From NCBI RefSeq assembly GCF_023634025.1, contig NZ_JALJCW010000002.1:124001-188000 (forward strand): 64,000 nt of DNA, read 5' to 3'. Positions 11,538 through 41,947 of this stretch are shown one piece after another. Below the pieces are notes generated by a model. That model had not been told where the DNA came from. It saw only the letters and a list, made by a program, of their open reading frames with translations, and did no database searches. Source of the stretch: Hanstruepera flava (GTDB lineage Bacteria; Bacteroidota; Bacteroidia; Flavobacteriales; Flavobacteriaceae). The number at the start of each line of letters is the position of its first letter. Position 1 is the first letter of the stretch. The position numbers were made by a program, and so were the translations under genes.

Positions 11538-12530
11538 TTATGAAACTTGTATTACGTAGGTGGCTACTATATCATTATTGATTTTTAAGTGTACATCATA
11601 AAGTCCTTTTCTTTTAAAAGTATAATCAAATGAAATTGTACCATTTTCATTTTTTAAGTTGGAAACTTCAAATGTAATCTCTTCTATTCCATTATACTTT
11701 ATTAATGAAATTGTATGATTTGTAATTTGCTTGAGTGATTTGAAGCTGAAATCTATTTTGTGATTCCGTTTTATTGAAATGTGCATTTCATTCGGATTTA
11801 TGGGAATTATTTTGTGTTTAAAAGATTCGCTATAAATTAGAGGCGAGTTTGTGAATTGTGTTGGCGTTAATGAATCGATTAACAACCATTTTTCTTGTAA
11901 TGGATAATGACTCTTTGAAAAAAGGATTGGATCTGTTAAAAAATAGCCATCGTTAAAATCACTCATAAAAGTATTTCCAATTGTATAGCCACTAGACCAT
12001 GTCGCGTCACATAAATACCATTTGTCATTTAATTTTACAGCATTCCATGAATGATTGGCTATTTCAAGTTTGTTTACATTGGAAGTTATGGATCTGCCAT
12101 ATCCATTAATTATTTCACATTCTATATTAGCAAAAAGGCATAATTCTTTAATTAAATAGGCATACCCCGTGCACATTGTTTTCTTGTCTTTGAGTAACGT
12201 GCCAAACACAGTTTTTAAGTATTGATTATTCCACTTTATGAACTTTAGGCTATCATTTTGATATTTCCTCTTTTTTTTGAAAATTGTATTTTCTTGGTTT
12301 ATATCTGCTTTAATGTTTTTACAAACCCAAGTATAAATAGCTCTAAATTTTTCTACATCAGTTTGTAATTTATGAGTTAGGTTATAAGATAGATTGGGTA
12401 AGTGGTCTAAACTTGCTCCTTTATTAATTTTTGCCATATGATCAGCTAATGTAAAATCAACAGATTCAAAGTCAGAGACTTGAGCAAACGTGAAATTGAC
12501 AAAAAATAGGGCTAGAATAATGAATTTCAT
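11538..12530 (-). CDS. Exported transglutaminase-like (papain-fold) protein
   Basis: 330 residues with a short signal peptide (MKFIILALFFVNFTFAQ). A transglutaminase-like core is clear: AIYTWVCKNIKADI (about 65-77), then the catalytic triad C120 in KKTMCTGYA, H160 in ANHSWNAVKL and D175 in WYLCDATWSSG. The C-terminal third (about 230-330) looks like a beta-sandwich (KGLYDVHLKINNDIVATYVIQV). These kyphoskoliosis-peptidase-like proteins are thought to be cysteine proteases or cross-linking enzymes in the envelope. It follows the Cys-rich CarboxypepD gene after 9 bp and shares its LytTR-like promoter region. Confidence 0.85.
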   Translation of the reverse strand: MKFIILALFFVNFTFAQVSDFESVDFTLADHMAKINKGASLDHLPNLSYNLTHKLQTDVEKFRAIYTWVCKNIKADINQENTIFKKKRKYQNDSLKFIKWNNQYLKTVFGTLLKDKKTMCTGYAYLIKELCLFANIECEIINGYGRSITSNVNKLEIANHSWNAVKLNDKWYLCDATWSSGYTIGNTFMSDFNDGYFLTDPILFSKSHYPLQEKWLLIDSLTPTQFTNSPLIYSESFKHKIIPINPNEMHISIKRNHKIDFSFKSLKQITNHTISLIKYNGIEEITFEVSNLKNENGTISFDYTFKRKGLYDVHLKINNDIVATYVIQVS

Positions 12531-12539
12531 TAGAAAAAT

Positions 12540-13217
12540 TTATTTCGATTTATAAATTCCTTTTGTAGCAACTTTTCCCATGACTACAAATTCTAAAGCA
12601 TCCATATTGACTTCCATTTGAATTTTAGTTTTTGAATTCTGACTGTTAATTATAATTTCACGTGTTTCATAACCTAAAAAACTAAAGCTCAAAACGTCAC
12701 CTTTATTTAGCTTTTCAGGGAATTTAAACTCACCATCAAAATTAGTTTGAGTACCATTTGTAGTGCCTTTCTGAATAATATTTACACCTGGAAGTGGTAA
12801 ACCATTTTCGTCCAAAACAGTTCCTTTAACTTCAATTTCATTCTCTTGAGATACGTCATTGATATTTGAAGGGTCTTGGTTAGAAGCATCATTTTGTTTT
12901 TGAAGTTCTTGTGAATAGCTATTACTGAATGAAAACAATGTTAAACAAGCCAATCCAATACTACTTATAAAGCTTAACGTTCTATTTTTTTTAGGTGTTT
13001 TGTTATAAGTTGTTAATTGATTGCTGTTAAATCTTCCACAAGTATTGTTTTTATTTTTATTCTTGAAAAAAGTAATAATCTCTTTGGAGTTCATTGAAGT
13101 AAAGTCTACAACTTCTTTATTACAAGAGTCACAAAAACCACCCATTTCTGTCGGTCTAAAAGTGTTGAAGTTTTCTAAACACGGTTTTTTAATGTCTAAA
13201 CTGAATTGATTTTTCAT
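12540..13217 (-). CDS. Cys-cluster / single-TM / CarboxypepD_reg-like protein
   Basis: 225 residues in three parts. The N-terminal 60 residues hold four cysteines (C13, C29, C32, C60) with the motif EMGGFCDSCNKEVVDFT, which looks like a small zinc- or metal-binding knuckle and faces the cytoplasm. A membrane segment follows at about 81-98. The outer part from 129 is a CarboxypepD_reg-like beta-sandwich (VKGTVLDENGLPLPGVNIIQKG, FDGEFKFP, LSFSFLGYETREI). This is a recurrent flavobacterial architecture of unknown function that could carry a signal across the inner membrane. It heads an operon with the transglutaminase-like gene. Confidence 0.78.
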   Translation of the reverse strand: MKNQFSLDIKKPCLENFNTFRPTEMGGFCDSCNKEVVDFTSMNSKEIITFFKNKNKNNTCGRFNSNQLTTYNKTPKKNRTLSFISSIGLACLTLFSFSNSYSQELQKQNDASNQDPSNINDVSQENEIEVKGTVLDENGLPLPGVNIIQKGTTNGTQTNFDGEFKFPEKLNKGDVLSFSFLGYETREIIINSQNSKTKIQMEVNMDALEFVVMGKVATKGIYKSK

Positions 13218-13239
13218 AATGGTTATATTATTTATATAG

Positions 13240-13328
13240 CAAACCTATCAATTAGATGGTTTAAAGAAAATCAAGTATTAGACTAGGGTGCTTTTCAATG
13301 AGTAAATAATGCAGTCTGGTTAGGGAAT
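13240..13328 (-). promoter_or_regulatory. Promoter with LytTR-type direct repeat
   Basis: On the minus strand TAGGTTTG (13240-13247) is a perfect -7 element, with the ATG 22 nt downstream and no good -33 box. Exactly 51 bp upstream lies a direct repeat in 9-N12-9 format, TGAGTAAAT (13299-13307) and TTAGGGAAT (13320-13328, written on the plus strand), 6 of 9 positions identical. The same arrangement at the same distance is found at 41859-41947. A weak -33 box plus an upstream repeat suggests activator dependence. Confidence 0.5.
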
Positions 13329-13331
13329 AAA

Positions 13332-13359
13332 AAAACCACCTCTATTAAGAAGTGGTTTT
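13332..13359 (-). terminator. Terminator of htpG
   Basis: AAAACCAC (13332-13339) pairs with GTGGTTTT (13352-13359), extended by TC/GA across one mismatch. The minus strand continues with a further T run, as expected for htpG, which ends at 13399. Confidence 0.65.
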
Positions 13360-13398
13360 CTAATTGTTAGATACTGAAACATATTCAGCATGACAAAA

Positions 13399-28237: not shown

Positions 28238-29050
28238 TTAGGGACGATTTTGAAGGTACTTTTTAACGCCTAAAAAGTGTTTTGACGAAATAGGAATATC
28301 GGCATCGATATAACTAAGCTTTATTGTTCCTTTTCTTGTATTTCCTGCAATACCTGTAATAAAAGATGGATTAATAATAAACGATCTATGTATTTGCTGT
28401 CCTCGAGGAATCTCTTTGATAAGGTTTGATAAGGTTGACCGAATGACTTGTTTTTCAAGCGTGTTTTGTGAAAGAAAATAAATATCAACATAGTTTGATT
28501 GGGCTTGAGCCATTATAAAGTCTTTTTCTAAAAACTTAATTTGCTCGTTGCTATTACTTCCTTTAATTACAATTTTATTATCACTTTCTGAAGAGGTGGA
28601 TTTTATTTCAATTTTACTAAATCTAAATCTCAAATATGCCCAAATTGGAATGAATATTGGAGCAAAGGGAACACTAAAAGATTTAGACCAATTTAAAATT
28701 TCATTTAAGTGAATTTTAAACCCATTTACTAATATAGTATTGTAAAAATATGATACAATTGTTATTAAAATAAAACCTAATAAAAGAATAAAAACTTCTT
28801 GTAAAACGTTCCATTTACGGTTTGCGTATCCATACCATAAATTCTCGAGTAAGTGTAAAAATAATATAGGTATAATTATGCAGAATGAATATCCAAATAG
28901 CTTAAGATTTTTATAAGGTATATCAGTAGTATAGGTATCAAATGGCTGTAAAAAAATTAGAATAAAGACCACCATCATGGATAGTATTATACTTATAAAA
29001 ATGGTATGAATCCAATTTGATGTATAGCCAATTGATCTTTTCAATTCCAT
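28238..29050 (-). CDS. Membrane-embedded LytTR-type transcription regulator
   Basis: 270 residues with four membrane helices (about 12-34, 48-66, 82-104, 124-143) and a C-terminal LytTR DNA-binding domain (about 168-268): FLEKDFIMAQAQSNYVDIYFL, QVIRSTLSNLIKEI, IHRSFIINPSFITGI and SYIDADIPISSKHFLGVKKYL. There is no receiver domain, so a signal is probably sensed in the membrane. LytTR proteins bind 9-bp direct repeats spaced by 12 bp, the kind of repeat seen at 13299-13328 and 41918-41947 in this window. The S41-like gene downstream may be a target. Confidence 0.88.
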   Translation of the reverse strand: MELKRSIGYTSNWIHTIFISIILSMMVVFILIFLQPFDTYTTDIPYKNLKLFGYSFCIIIPILFLHLLENLWYGYANRKWNVLQEVFILLLGFILITIVSYFYNTILVNGFKIHLNEILNWSKSFSVPFAPIFIPIWAYLRFRFSKIEIKSTSSESDNKIVIKGSNSNEQIKFLEKDFIMAQAQSNYVDIYFLSQNTLEKQVIRSTLSNLIKEIPRGQQIHRSFIINPSFITGIAGNTRKGTIKLSYIDADIPISSKHFLGVKKYLQNRP

Positions 29051-41001: not shown

Positions 41002-41799
41002 TTAATTCCAAACGTAGTTTTCAAGCCAATTGGATGCATTTTGTAAATACGAAACATATTCGCAAGGTTCCAGATGGGTTAGGTTAGGAGCAACTTCTAA
41101 AGTAACATCACTTCCTGCTGCGTTTGTGTCTGTTATCCAGTCTTCAATATCTGCAAGAGGGAACAACTCATCGTTTTCCCCATGAATGGCATACATGGGT
41201 ATGGGCATAACCCTTGCTGATCCGTTTTGGTTATACGAACCGTAAGTACTCGCCATGGGGATAGCAGCTGAAAAGTAACTAGAACGTGTTTCGCCTAAAT
41301 ACCAACTTCCGTTTCCACCATCACTGTACCCATTAACTACAATTTTAGTGGGGTCTACTGGTAAAAACTCTACAGCTAAATCGACTAACGATAATACTTG
41401 CTCTACGTTATAGGAATGAAACCAAGCCAATTGGTCGGCATTCGGACTAATAATTATAGCATCCAAGGATTCAAAACCAGGTTCGGCATAGCAATCGGTC
41501 TGCTTATGTGCATCGGGATTGTTTATCAATACACCACCATGTAGCGTAATAATTAAGGGTCGGTTATTGTTTGTAAAATCTACATCTGGCATAATTACCC
41601 TAAAGTTCCAGACAAAATTAAAATGGTTTAAAAGAGCAATGTCATTATTGCCAGTAGTGAAGTCAATCTCGCTAAAGTCTTGGCGTACATCGTCAAATGA
41701 ACGTTGTGGCACAAATGGCTCGTCACTGTCGTCTGAACTACAGCTAAAAGTTAGCACAAGTGCAAACAGACAAATAAATGGTAATTTTAAATGTTTCAT
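41002..41799 (-). CDS. Alpha/beta hydrolase lipoprotein (esterase/PHB depolymerase-like)
   Basis: I start at the ATG at 41797-41799 (265 aa), which gives the lipoprotein signal MKHLKLPFICLFALVLTFSC; the longer frame lacks one. RPLIITLHGGVLINNP is the oxyanion strand, NGYSDGGNGSWYLG holds the nucleophile Ser, AIHGENDELFPL the Asp and the His is probably in NLTHLEPC. The arrangement fits the exported feruloyl-esterase/PHB-depolymerase group (esterase PF00756/PF10503-like). It acts in the outer membrane or outside. Its upstream region carries the best copy of the LytTR-type repeat. Confidence 0.78.
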   Translation of the reverse strand: MKHLKLPFICLFALVLTFSCSSDDSDEPFVPQRSFDDVRQDFSEIDFTTGNNDIALLNHFNFVWNFRVIMPDVDFTNNNRPLIITLHGGVLINNPDAHKQTDCYAEPGFESLDAIIISPNADQLAWFHSYNVEQVLSLVDLAVEFLPVDPTKIVVNGYSDGGNGSWYLGETRSSYFSAAIPMASTYGSYNQNGSARVMPIPMYAIHGENDELFPLADIEDWITDTNAAGSDVTLEVAPNLTHLEPCEYVSYLQNASNWLENYVWN

Positions 41800-41858
41800 G
41801 GTTGTCAATTTTTTAATAAATGTAGTAAAAATGTGGTTATTAATCATGTAATCAGTTA

Positions 41859-41947
41859 TAAAGTTAGCTTTCTAAAAAATGAATTTGGTGTTAAATTGAG
41901 TGAATCCTACTCTTTAATTAGGGAATCGTGACATATGGTTAGGGAAT
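41859..41947 (-). promoter_or_regulatory. LytTR-type direct repeat and -7 element
   Basis: On the plus strand two perfect copies of TTAGGGAAT (41918-41926 and 41939-41947) are separated by 12 bp, period 21, two helical turns. TAACTTTA (41859-41866 on the minus strand) is a -7 element with one mismatch, 51 bp from the repeat. The same distance and 24 of 34 identical bases are found at 13297-13330. The target would be the esterase lipoprotein gene (ATG at 41799). The bshC gene on the other side is less likely, as it is 120 bp away. Confidence 0.55.

Follow-up and report, generated by a model that had tools for sequence, protein, structure and literature searches.

Two-component systems of the BtsSR (YehUT) and LytSR kind combine a LytS-type His_kinase protein with a REC-LytTR partner, and the kinase-regulator pair considered here is composed in the same way; its sensor is unlike theirs, however, in that a CarbopepD-like domain and TPR repeats precede the kinase. 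The box sequence of another LytTR regulator, AgrA, differs from the TTYACTCAT box described below. The LytTR regulators of S. mutans employ 9-bp direct repeats with a 12-bp spacer, located 4-11 bp upstream of the -35 element, and the LytTR Regulatory Systems (LRS; HdrR/BrsR type) to which they belong couple a LytTR regulator to a membrane inhibitor and control the operon that encodes them (PMC6193735, in the portion available), whereas here a kinase-response-regulator pair would serve many separate promoters. The promoter-proximal repeats of AgrA in Staphylococcus aureus are centred near -60 (PMC4227749, likewise in part). For the sigma-A promoter of Flavobacterium psychrophilum a -7 element TAnnTTTG at -12 to -5 has been described in a paper whose main text, as far as it was available, uses the terms LytTR and direct repeat 0 times each (PMC9723704). 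A Riemerella two-component system was considered as a relative and rejected because the accessible part of its description assigns it to the OmpR/BaeS type and not to LytTR (PMC5399024). Among the literature matches listed, none defines an operator or regulon for a Flavobacteriaceae LytTR protein, and no title among the matches listed for TTTACTCATT and TTCACTCATT concerns these bacteria; the Hanstruepera flava genome itself encodes 13 LytTR proteins.

The window, that is the whole stretch of 64,000 nucleotides analysed here, contains two places at which the initial annotation had described 9-N12-9 repeats. These repeats are borne out (TTAGGGAAT-N12-TTAGGGAAT at 41918-41947 and TGAGTAAAT-N12-TTAGGGAAT at 13299-13328), and a recount gives the same 24 identical positions out of 34 between both loci and the same 51-bp gap to a -7 element at each (13240-13247; 41859-41866). 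Each locus has a further copy in the same 21-bp phase that had been missed: 41897-41905 reads TGAGTGAAT, and the copy at 13277-13285 is degenerate. With this extra copy, both the 13.3 and the 41.9 kb locus have a box 2 that precedes the -7 element by 30 bp. Within the window the literal pair with up to three mismatches yields 3 matches against 0.12 expected from shuffles, the third (41897-41926) adding one more 41.9 kb copy, and the 3.09-Mb genome (23 contigs) contains a single perfect TTAGGGAAT pair. At up to three mismatches, however, the literal TTAGGGAAT pair occurs at 8 places in this genome versus 8 for a reversed control, and at up to one mismatch at 10 places in 9 of 299 family genomes versus 10 in 8 genomes. 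The literal pair was therefore rejected as a genome or family motif; taken to the letter, the finding looks like chance.

The consensus had been misread, TTAGGGAAT being the reverse complement of a variant box, and a signal emerges only if the opposite strand is read and the box is allowed to vary to TTYACTCA. Exact TTYACTCA-N13-TTYACTCA is present at 116 places in 76 of the 299 Flavobacteriaceae genomes, the reversed control at 10 places in 9 genomes. The enrichment and conservation in relatives on which the proposal had been staked thus hold for the corrected motif and fail for the literal one. Within the genome under study the same pair with up to three mismatches is found 151 times versus 163 in the control; of these, only nine, with one mismatch or none, seemed promising, among them C1:1470513, which is not a hit of the promoter model R1 introduced below. 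On this comparison of sequences, the window repeats are variants of a Flavobacteriaceae-wide candidate operator, TTYACTCAT-N12-TTYACTCAT on the gene strand, whose boxes are fixed at 30 and 51 bp before the -7 element and in the window additionally at 72 bp.

Sixty neighbourhoods around family sites were fetched, most of them 14 kb long, and a column profile was built from 59 sites, two of which come from the genome under study. In this profile box 1 is followed by a Y-C-AAA block and box 2 by TT; a TTTT block (T4), which may be the -33 element, lies at -35 to -32, 6 bp behind box 2; the -7 element, TAgTTTg, begins 59 bp downstream of where box 1 starts; and a conserved A (0.81) stands twelve bases after the start of the -7. 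At least three of the -7 letters T, A, T, T are present at this one offset in 49 of 57 sites from other genomes, compared to 22 at the best alternative offset. The -7 geometry of the F. psychrophilum sigma-A promoter fits the profile and, since the sigma-A box is placed at -12 to -5 in the available text of PMC9723704, transcription likely starts at the conserved A. In both window sites box 2 and the -7 occupy the profile offsets; the T4 block is present at 13.3 kb only. A conserved TT near -19 (profile offsets 52-53), between the T4 block and the -7, lies outside the explanation offered here, and at one locus (L280) the operator falls inside an ORF of at least 150 aa.

The family sites consist of two 9-bp direct repeats with a 12-bp spacer at a fixed place just upstream of the -35/-33 region, which supports the LytTR-type format (21-bp period) and the constant -7 distance that had been claimed. 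The same repeat length, spacer and position just upstream of the promoter characterise the LRS operators, and the box TTCACTCAT equals the LRS box ACCACTTAT in 6 of 9 letters by a hand count made against the part of PMC6193735 that was available. AgrA is likewise a LytTR response regulator, and the repeats here are centred about -57, close to its own; it differs from the present system in promoter type (here -7 TAnnTTTG), in the kinase sensor and in the envelope-type targets. The format shared with S. mutans and AgrA together with the six equal box letters suggests that the operator belongs to the known LytTR kind.

Promoters of this type were sought with a model, R1, trained on 46 sites, all from other genomes and none from the genome under study; of 57 sites, 8 had been dropped for failing the -7 test and three more by judgement (L151, a tandem repeat; L174 and L189, with an extra downstream box). 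R1 returned 45 hits in this genome, the 11 best of which correspond to nine promoters:

C5:55954, R1 promoter
C5:53394, R1 promoter
C1:1581748, R1 promoter
C2:397525, R1 promoter
C1:1087588, R1 promoter
C3:248266/248309, R1 promoter
C1:324723, R1 promoter
C5:57812/57873, R1 promoter
C2:137233, R1 promoter, the 13.3 kb site

The 13.3 kb site ranks 10 of 45 (E 0.038) and is matched over its full length; the nine hits ranked above it all lie at places found earlier by the TTYACTCA-pair scan of this genome. In the unfiltered ranking of the window the 13.3 kb site comes first, the 41.9 kb site second and a place inside bshC third (E 0.04). Three operator promoters lie within 4.5 kb at C5:53394-57903 (L194); a gene for a CarbopepD protein follows at least one of the three, and this cluster is possibly the core of the regulon. 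Family-wide R1 counts were obtained under the stricter filters that apply to scans of more than 40 genomes, at which weak matches are lost.

The 13.3 kb locus consists of the following features:

13319-13327, minus strand: box 0, TTCCCTAAC, 72 bp before the -7 element (from the sequence and a -7-anchored alignment with three other genera)
13298-13306, minus strand: box 1, TTTACTCAT, followed by TGAAAAG, near the family profile; 51 bp before the -7 element
13277-13285, minus strand: box 2, TAGTCTAAT, degenerate, with TTTT in phase behind it; 30 bp before the -7 element
13240-13247, minus strand: -7 element TAGGTTTG (from the sequence; at the fixed offset of the family sites)
13233-13306, minus strand: R1 match, model positions 2-75 of 76; 16.6 bits, E 0.00053 in the window and 16.1 bits, E 0.038 in the genome
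12540-13217, minus strand: target gene P0002, with an N-terminal Cys cluster, a probable membrane segment (by eye) and a CarbopepD_reg domain
11538-12530, minus strand: transglutaminase-like protein, 9 bp downstream of the P0002 gene

We infer a transcription start at 13235, and the transglutaminase-like gene probably shares an operon with P0002. No P0002 orthologue was found in the four same-genus genomes searched, the G300 protein being a 39% paralogue, but the gene is present in other genera (L062, L063, L064) behind an htpG-like gene and with the boxes in equal phase. R1 finds the promoter at the same place in the orthologues of G029 (E 7.8e-6), G028 (E 3.5e-4) and G015 (E 0.0096; regulator not detected, assembly 84% complete); box phase and -7 distance are kept across four genera. 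Exact TTYACTCA pairs also stand upstream of the P0002 paralogues in G005 and G019, the G019 site (L068) being itself the training-set site L181, and G300 has one exact and one degenerate box; the upstream regions of the homologues L065, L069 and L070 contain no convincing site under R1. We consider the 13.3 kb site a well supported candidate member of the regulon. A terminator-like hairpin behind htpG (13330-13360) adjoins box 0, and the same order of hairpin and box 0 is seen by eye in L062, L063 and L064.

At 41.9 kb the corresponding features are:

41938-41946, minus strand: box 0, TTCCCTAAC, 72 bp before the -7 element
41917-41925, minus strand: box 1, TTCCCTAAT, 51 bp before the -7 element
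41896-41904, minus strand: box 2, TTCACTCAA, better kept within the genus than boxes 0 and 1; 30 bp before the -7 element
41859-41866, minus strand: -7 element TAACTTTA
41002-41799, minus strand: target gene, a lipoprotein-like protein matching dienelactone hydrolase

Relatives of this esterase begin at MK with a lipoprotein-like signal, which suggests that its start is probably MKHLK at 41799 and that the listed ATG at 41847 is too early, giving a leader of ~55 nt. Four same-genus genomes carry the esterase lipoprotein at 76-98% identity, and in the aligned upstream regions of all five genomes TTYACTCA stands exactly 30 bp before the -7; the boxes 21 and 42 bp farther upstream (1 and 0) are kept only loosely in the relatives. 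The T4 block that follows box 2 at other sites is missing. Under R1 the window alignment at 41865-41918 (E 0.013) covers model positions 9-52 with a 10-base insertion and misses the -7, falling short of a full-length match, and the site is not among the 45 hits in its own genome. The relatives score E 0.0055 (L034), 0.025 (L032), 0.17 (L033) and 0.35 (L035), the last two being indistinguishable from chance because unrelated places reach E 0.04-0.1 in the same scan; nothing was found by R1 upstream of the esterase homologues L036-L038. Given the partial alignment and the absence from the genome list, we hold the 41.9 kb site to be a degenerate and weaker putative member, seen only within the genus and supported there by footprinting.

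The behaviour of the literal motif and the weak R1 match at 41.9 kb would both be expected if the repeats were a functionless chance similarity. We regard this as very unlikely, because a model trained elsewhere ranks precisely these two sites at the top of 64 kb, and because the 13.3 kb locus keeps its box phase and -7 distance in four genera and the 41.9 kb locus does so in five genomes of a single genus.

The operator leads to a regulator. A profile of the 13 LytTR domains of the genome under study detects a LytTR gene in nine of the 60 neighbourhoods, and all nine share one arrangement in which a REC-LytTR regulator, P0006, is encoded behind a kinase and divergently from the operator, with a small gene between kinase and regulator in L179 and L189. 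The copy in the present genome is:

C3:245283-246014: P0006, REC-LytTR response regulator

Both domains of P0006 score over the curated Pfam cut-offs (LytTR 71.6 bits, Response_reg 69.2 bits). Against solved structures P0006 matched response-regulator entries over the receiver part among the best 60 of 80, a result that is uninformative about the LytTR domain. The kinase P0005, directly upstream, contains a His_kinase domain (PF06580, 80.4 bits), TPR repeats and a CarbopepD-like domain that scores below Pfam's own cut-off. The composition is thus that of a REC-LytTR/LytS-type pair; an LRS is defined by a transmembrane inhibitor encoded with the regulator and by action on its own operon, whereas here P0006 is partnered by a kinase and the operator faces a divergent gene. 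The F. johnsoniae loci FJOH_RS09515 and FJOH_RS09520, which encode a LytTR protein and a histidine kinase under neighbouring locus tags, could be homologous to this pair; one or the other is mutated in each of five table columns in the available part of PMC10197871.

Regulator and operator occur together across the family. P0006 has matches in 158 of 299 genomes at 1e-50 and in 151 at 1.1e-88 or better; seven genomes with a best match of 1e-53 to 1e-65 were classed as carrying paralogues in the resulting 151/148 split. R1 hits are present in 144 of 151 genomes with the regulator versus 18 of 148 without it, or in 145/158 versus 17/141 if the seven weaker matches are counted as positive. Among genomes without an exact pair, which could not have contributed to the R1 training set, the figures are 74/80 with and 14/143 without the regulator (Fisher 5e-37, p values of this kind being inflated by the shared ancestry of the genomes). 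The exact pair itself is found in 5 of 141 genomes without any regulator match, about the level of the reversed control (9/299). Seven genomes with a regulator orthologue have no R1 hit and 18 with a hit have no close orthologue. Hits without a detected regulator were seen in G014, G034, G035, G048, G121, G140, G144, G153, G162, G163, G200, G238, G255, G256, G261, G292 and G293; some of these assemblies are incomplete, and G014, G034 and G200 are at least 99% complete.

Regulator and operator are also neighbours. Within 10 kb of the regulator gene there are 27 of the 116 exact sites, from 25 genomes, against ~0.6 expected; every one of them is 2.0-3.2 kb away, in a count that omits one regulator genome (G010, coordinate missing). 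In the 80 best named regulator loci R1 finds the operator in 74, at 114-256 bp before the kinase match and on the strand of the divergent gene; since some of these loci are training sites by their coordinates (L261, L262, L245), the 74 are not all independent of R1. The kinase is present in 79 of the 80, L309 being cut by a contig end, and the loci come from Hanstruepera marina (98% identical), then Aquaticitalea, Flavivirga, Winogradskyella, Algibacter and others. The operator is constant and the first divergent gene varies, with a vWA signature in 24 of 70 ORFs (L240-L319). Other first divergent genes in these loci encode proteins of ~340 aa and of ~240 aa, the latter SIMPL-like by appearance.

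Two other candidates for the regulator have to be weighed. The initial annotation had pointed to a LytTR protein encoded in the window:

28238-29050, minus strand: membrane LytTR protein (LytTR domain E 7.5e-7), tested as general regulator

The domain score and the location in the same window as both sites speak for this protein. It is present in just 13 of 299 genomes and absent from the same-genus G230, and it shows no association with the exact pair (6 of the 76 genomes that have one, Fisher p 0.10) or with R1 hits (9 of 162, p 0.39). It was therefore rejected as the general regulator, a role that we find hardly tenable for it, although similar boxes may be recognised by several LytTR proteins and the 28238-29050 protein may have a local role. 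A 21-bp period is not enough to identify a LytTR protein, and AraC-family proteins likewise bind direct repeats about two helical turns apart, so that the operator could be real and yet belong to a different regulator, for instance of the AraC family. That is highly improbable in the light of the single kinase-regulator arrangement in which all detected LytTR genes occur (9 of 60 loci, scanned for this regulator family), the synteny in 74 of 80 loci and the co-occurrence in 144 of 151 genomes. It is P0006, paired with P0005 and encoded outside the window, that likely binds the operator, as far as this can be inferred from genome comparison.

What the operator stands in front of was examined in 55 sites, 3 of which gave no target ORF; 35 of the 52 target proteins, thinned of near-duplicates, were scanned against Pfam. 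Among the best 25 of 38 families these contain 18 CarbopepD_reg_2, 7 VWA, 7 TonB plug, 5 YfbK_C, 2 alpha-2-macroglobulin, 2 TonB_C, 2 SIMPL and 2 DUF6146. A crude signal-peptide test is passed by 37 of the 52 targets, and 7 of the 52 have an N-terminal Cys cluster as in P0002, which places the 13.3 kb gene in a recurrent target class. No esterase of the 41.9 kb type was noticed among the 52 by inspection, made without a profile search. Together with the family scan, the target domains support the small regulon of mostly envelope-type targets that had been predicted. The Cys cluster, KPC...G.FC..C, is joined to CarbopepD_reg in the window protein 12540-13217 and recurs repeatedly behind the operator.

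We thus propose, with a probability of roughly 0.78, that both window sites are operators of one regulon in which the P0005 kinase and the P0006 regulator activate sigma-A promoters. P0005 would consist of a CarbopepD-like N-terminal domain and TPR repeats, presumably exported, one membrane span and a LytS-type kinase, and would phosphorylate the REC-LytTR response regulator P0006. The latter would bind two or three 9-bp boxes (TTYACTCAT) repeated directly every 21 bp, with centres at about -88, -67 and -46 relative to the predicted start site, and activate sigma-A promoters that have a -7 TAnnTTTG and, at most sites, the T4 block at -35 to -32. The regulon in this genome would comprise the nine R1 promoters including that at 13.3 kb; the 41.9 kb site would be a weaker member at the level of the genus, and the signal would be the state of the envelope. 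It is the position of the boxes relative to the promoter that suggests activation. Box 2 (-50 to -42) comes within ~7 bp of the -33 region and could hinder the polymerase, and P0006 might therefore bind and repress, or act by release; this we think unlikely, as activating LytTR proteins occupy such positions in S. mutans (PMC6193735) and in the case of AgrA (PMC4227749), judging from the available parts of both sources.

A wider and decidedly tentative interpretation, which we would sooner doubt than adopt, is that P0005/P0006 forms a general envelope-stress system of the Flavobacteriaceae, in the role that Cpx or sigma-E fills in enteric bacteria. The kinase would sense exported CarbopepD-domain proteins, or their failed assembly, via its own CarbopepD-like domain, and the regulator would make more of the same class, namely CarbopepD, vWA/YfbK, alpha-2-macroglobulin, TonB-type and Cys-cluster proteins.

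The kinase-regulator pair, an operator of fixed geometry and a list of targets all follow from sequence alone. A widespread sensor system thereby gains a likely binding site and target genes, which would open a first approach to envelope adjustment in marine flavobacteria.
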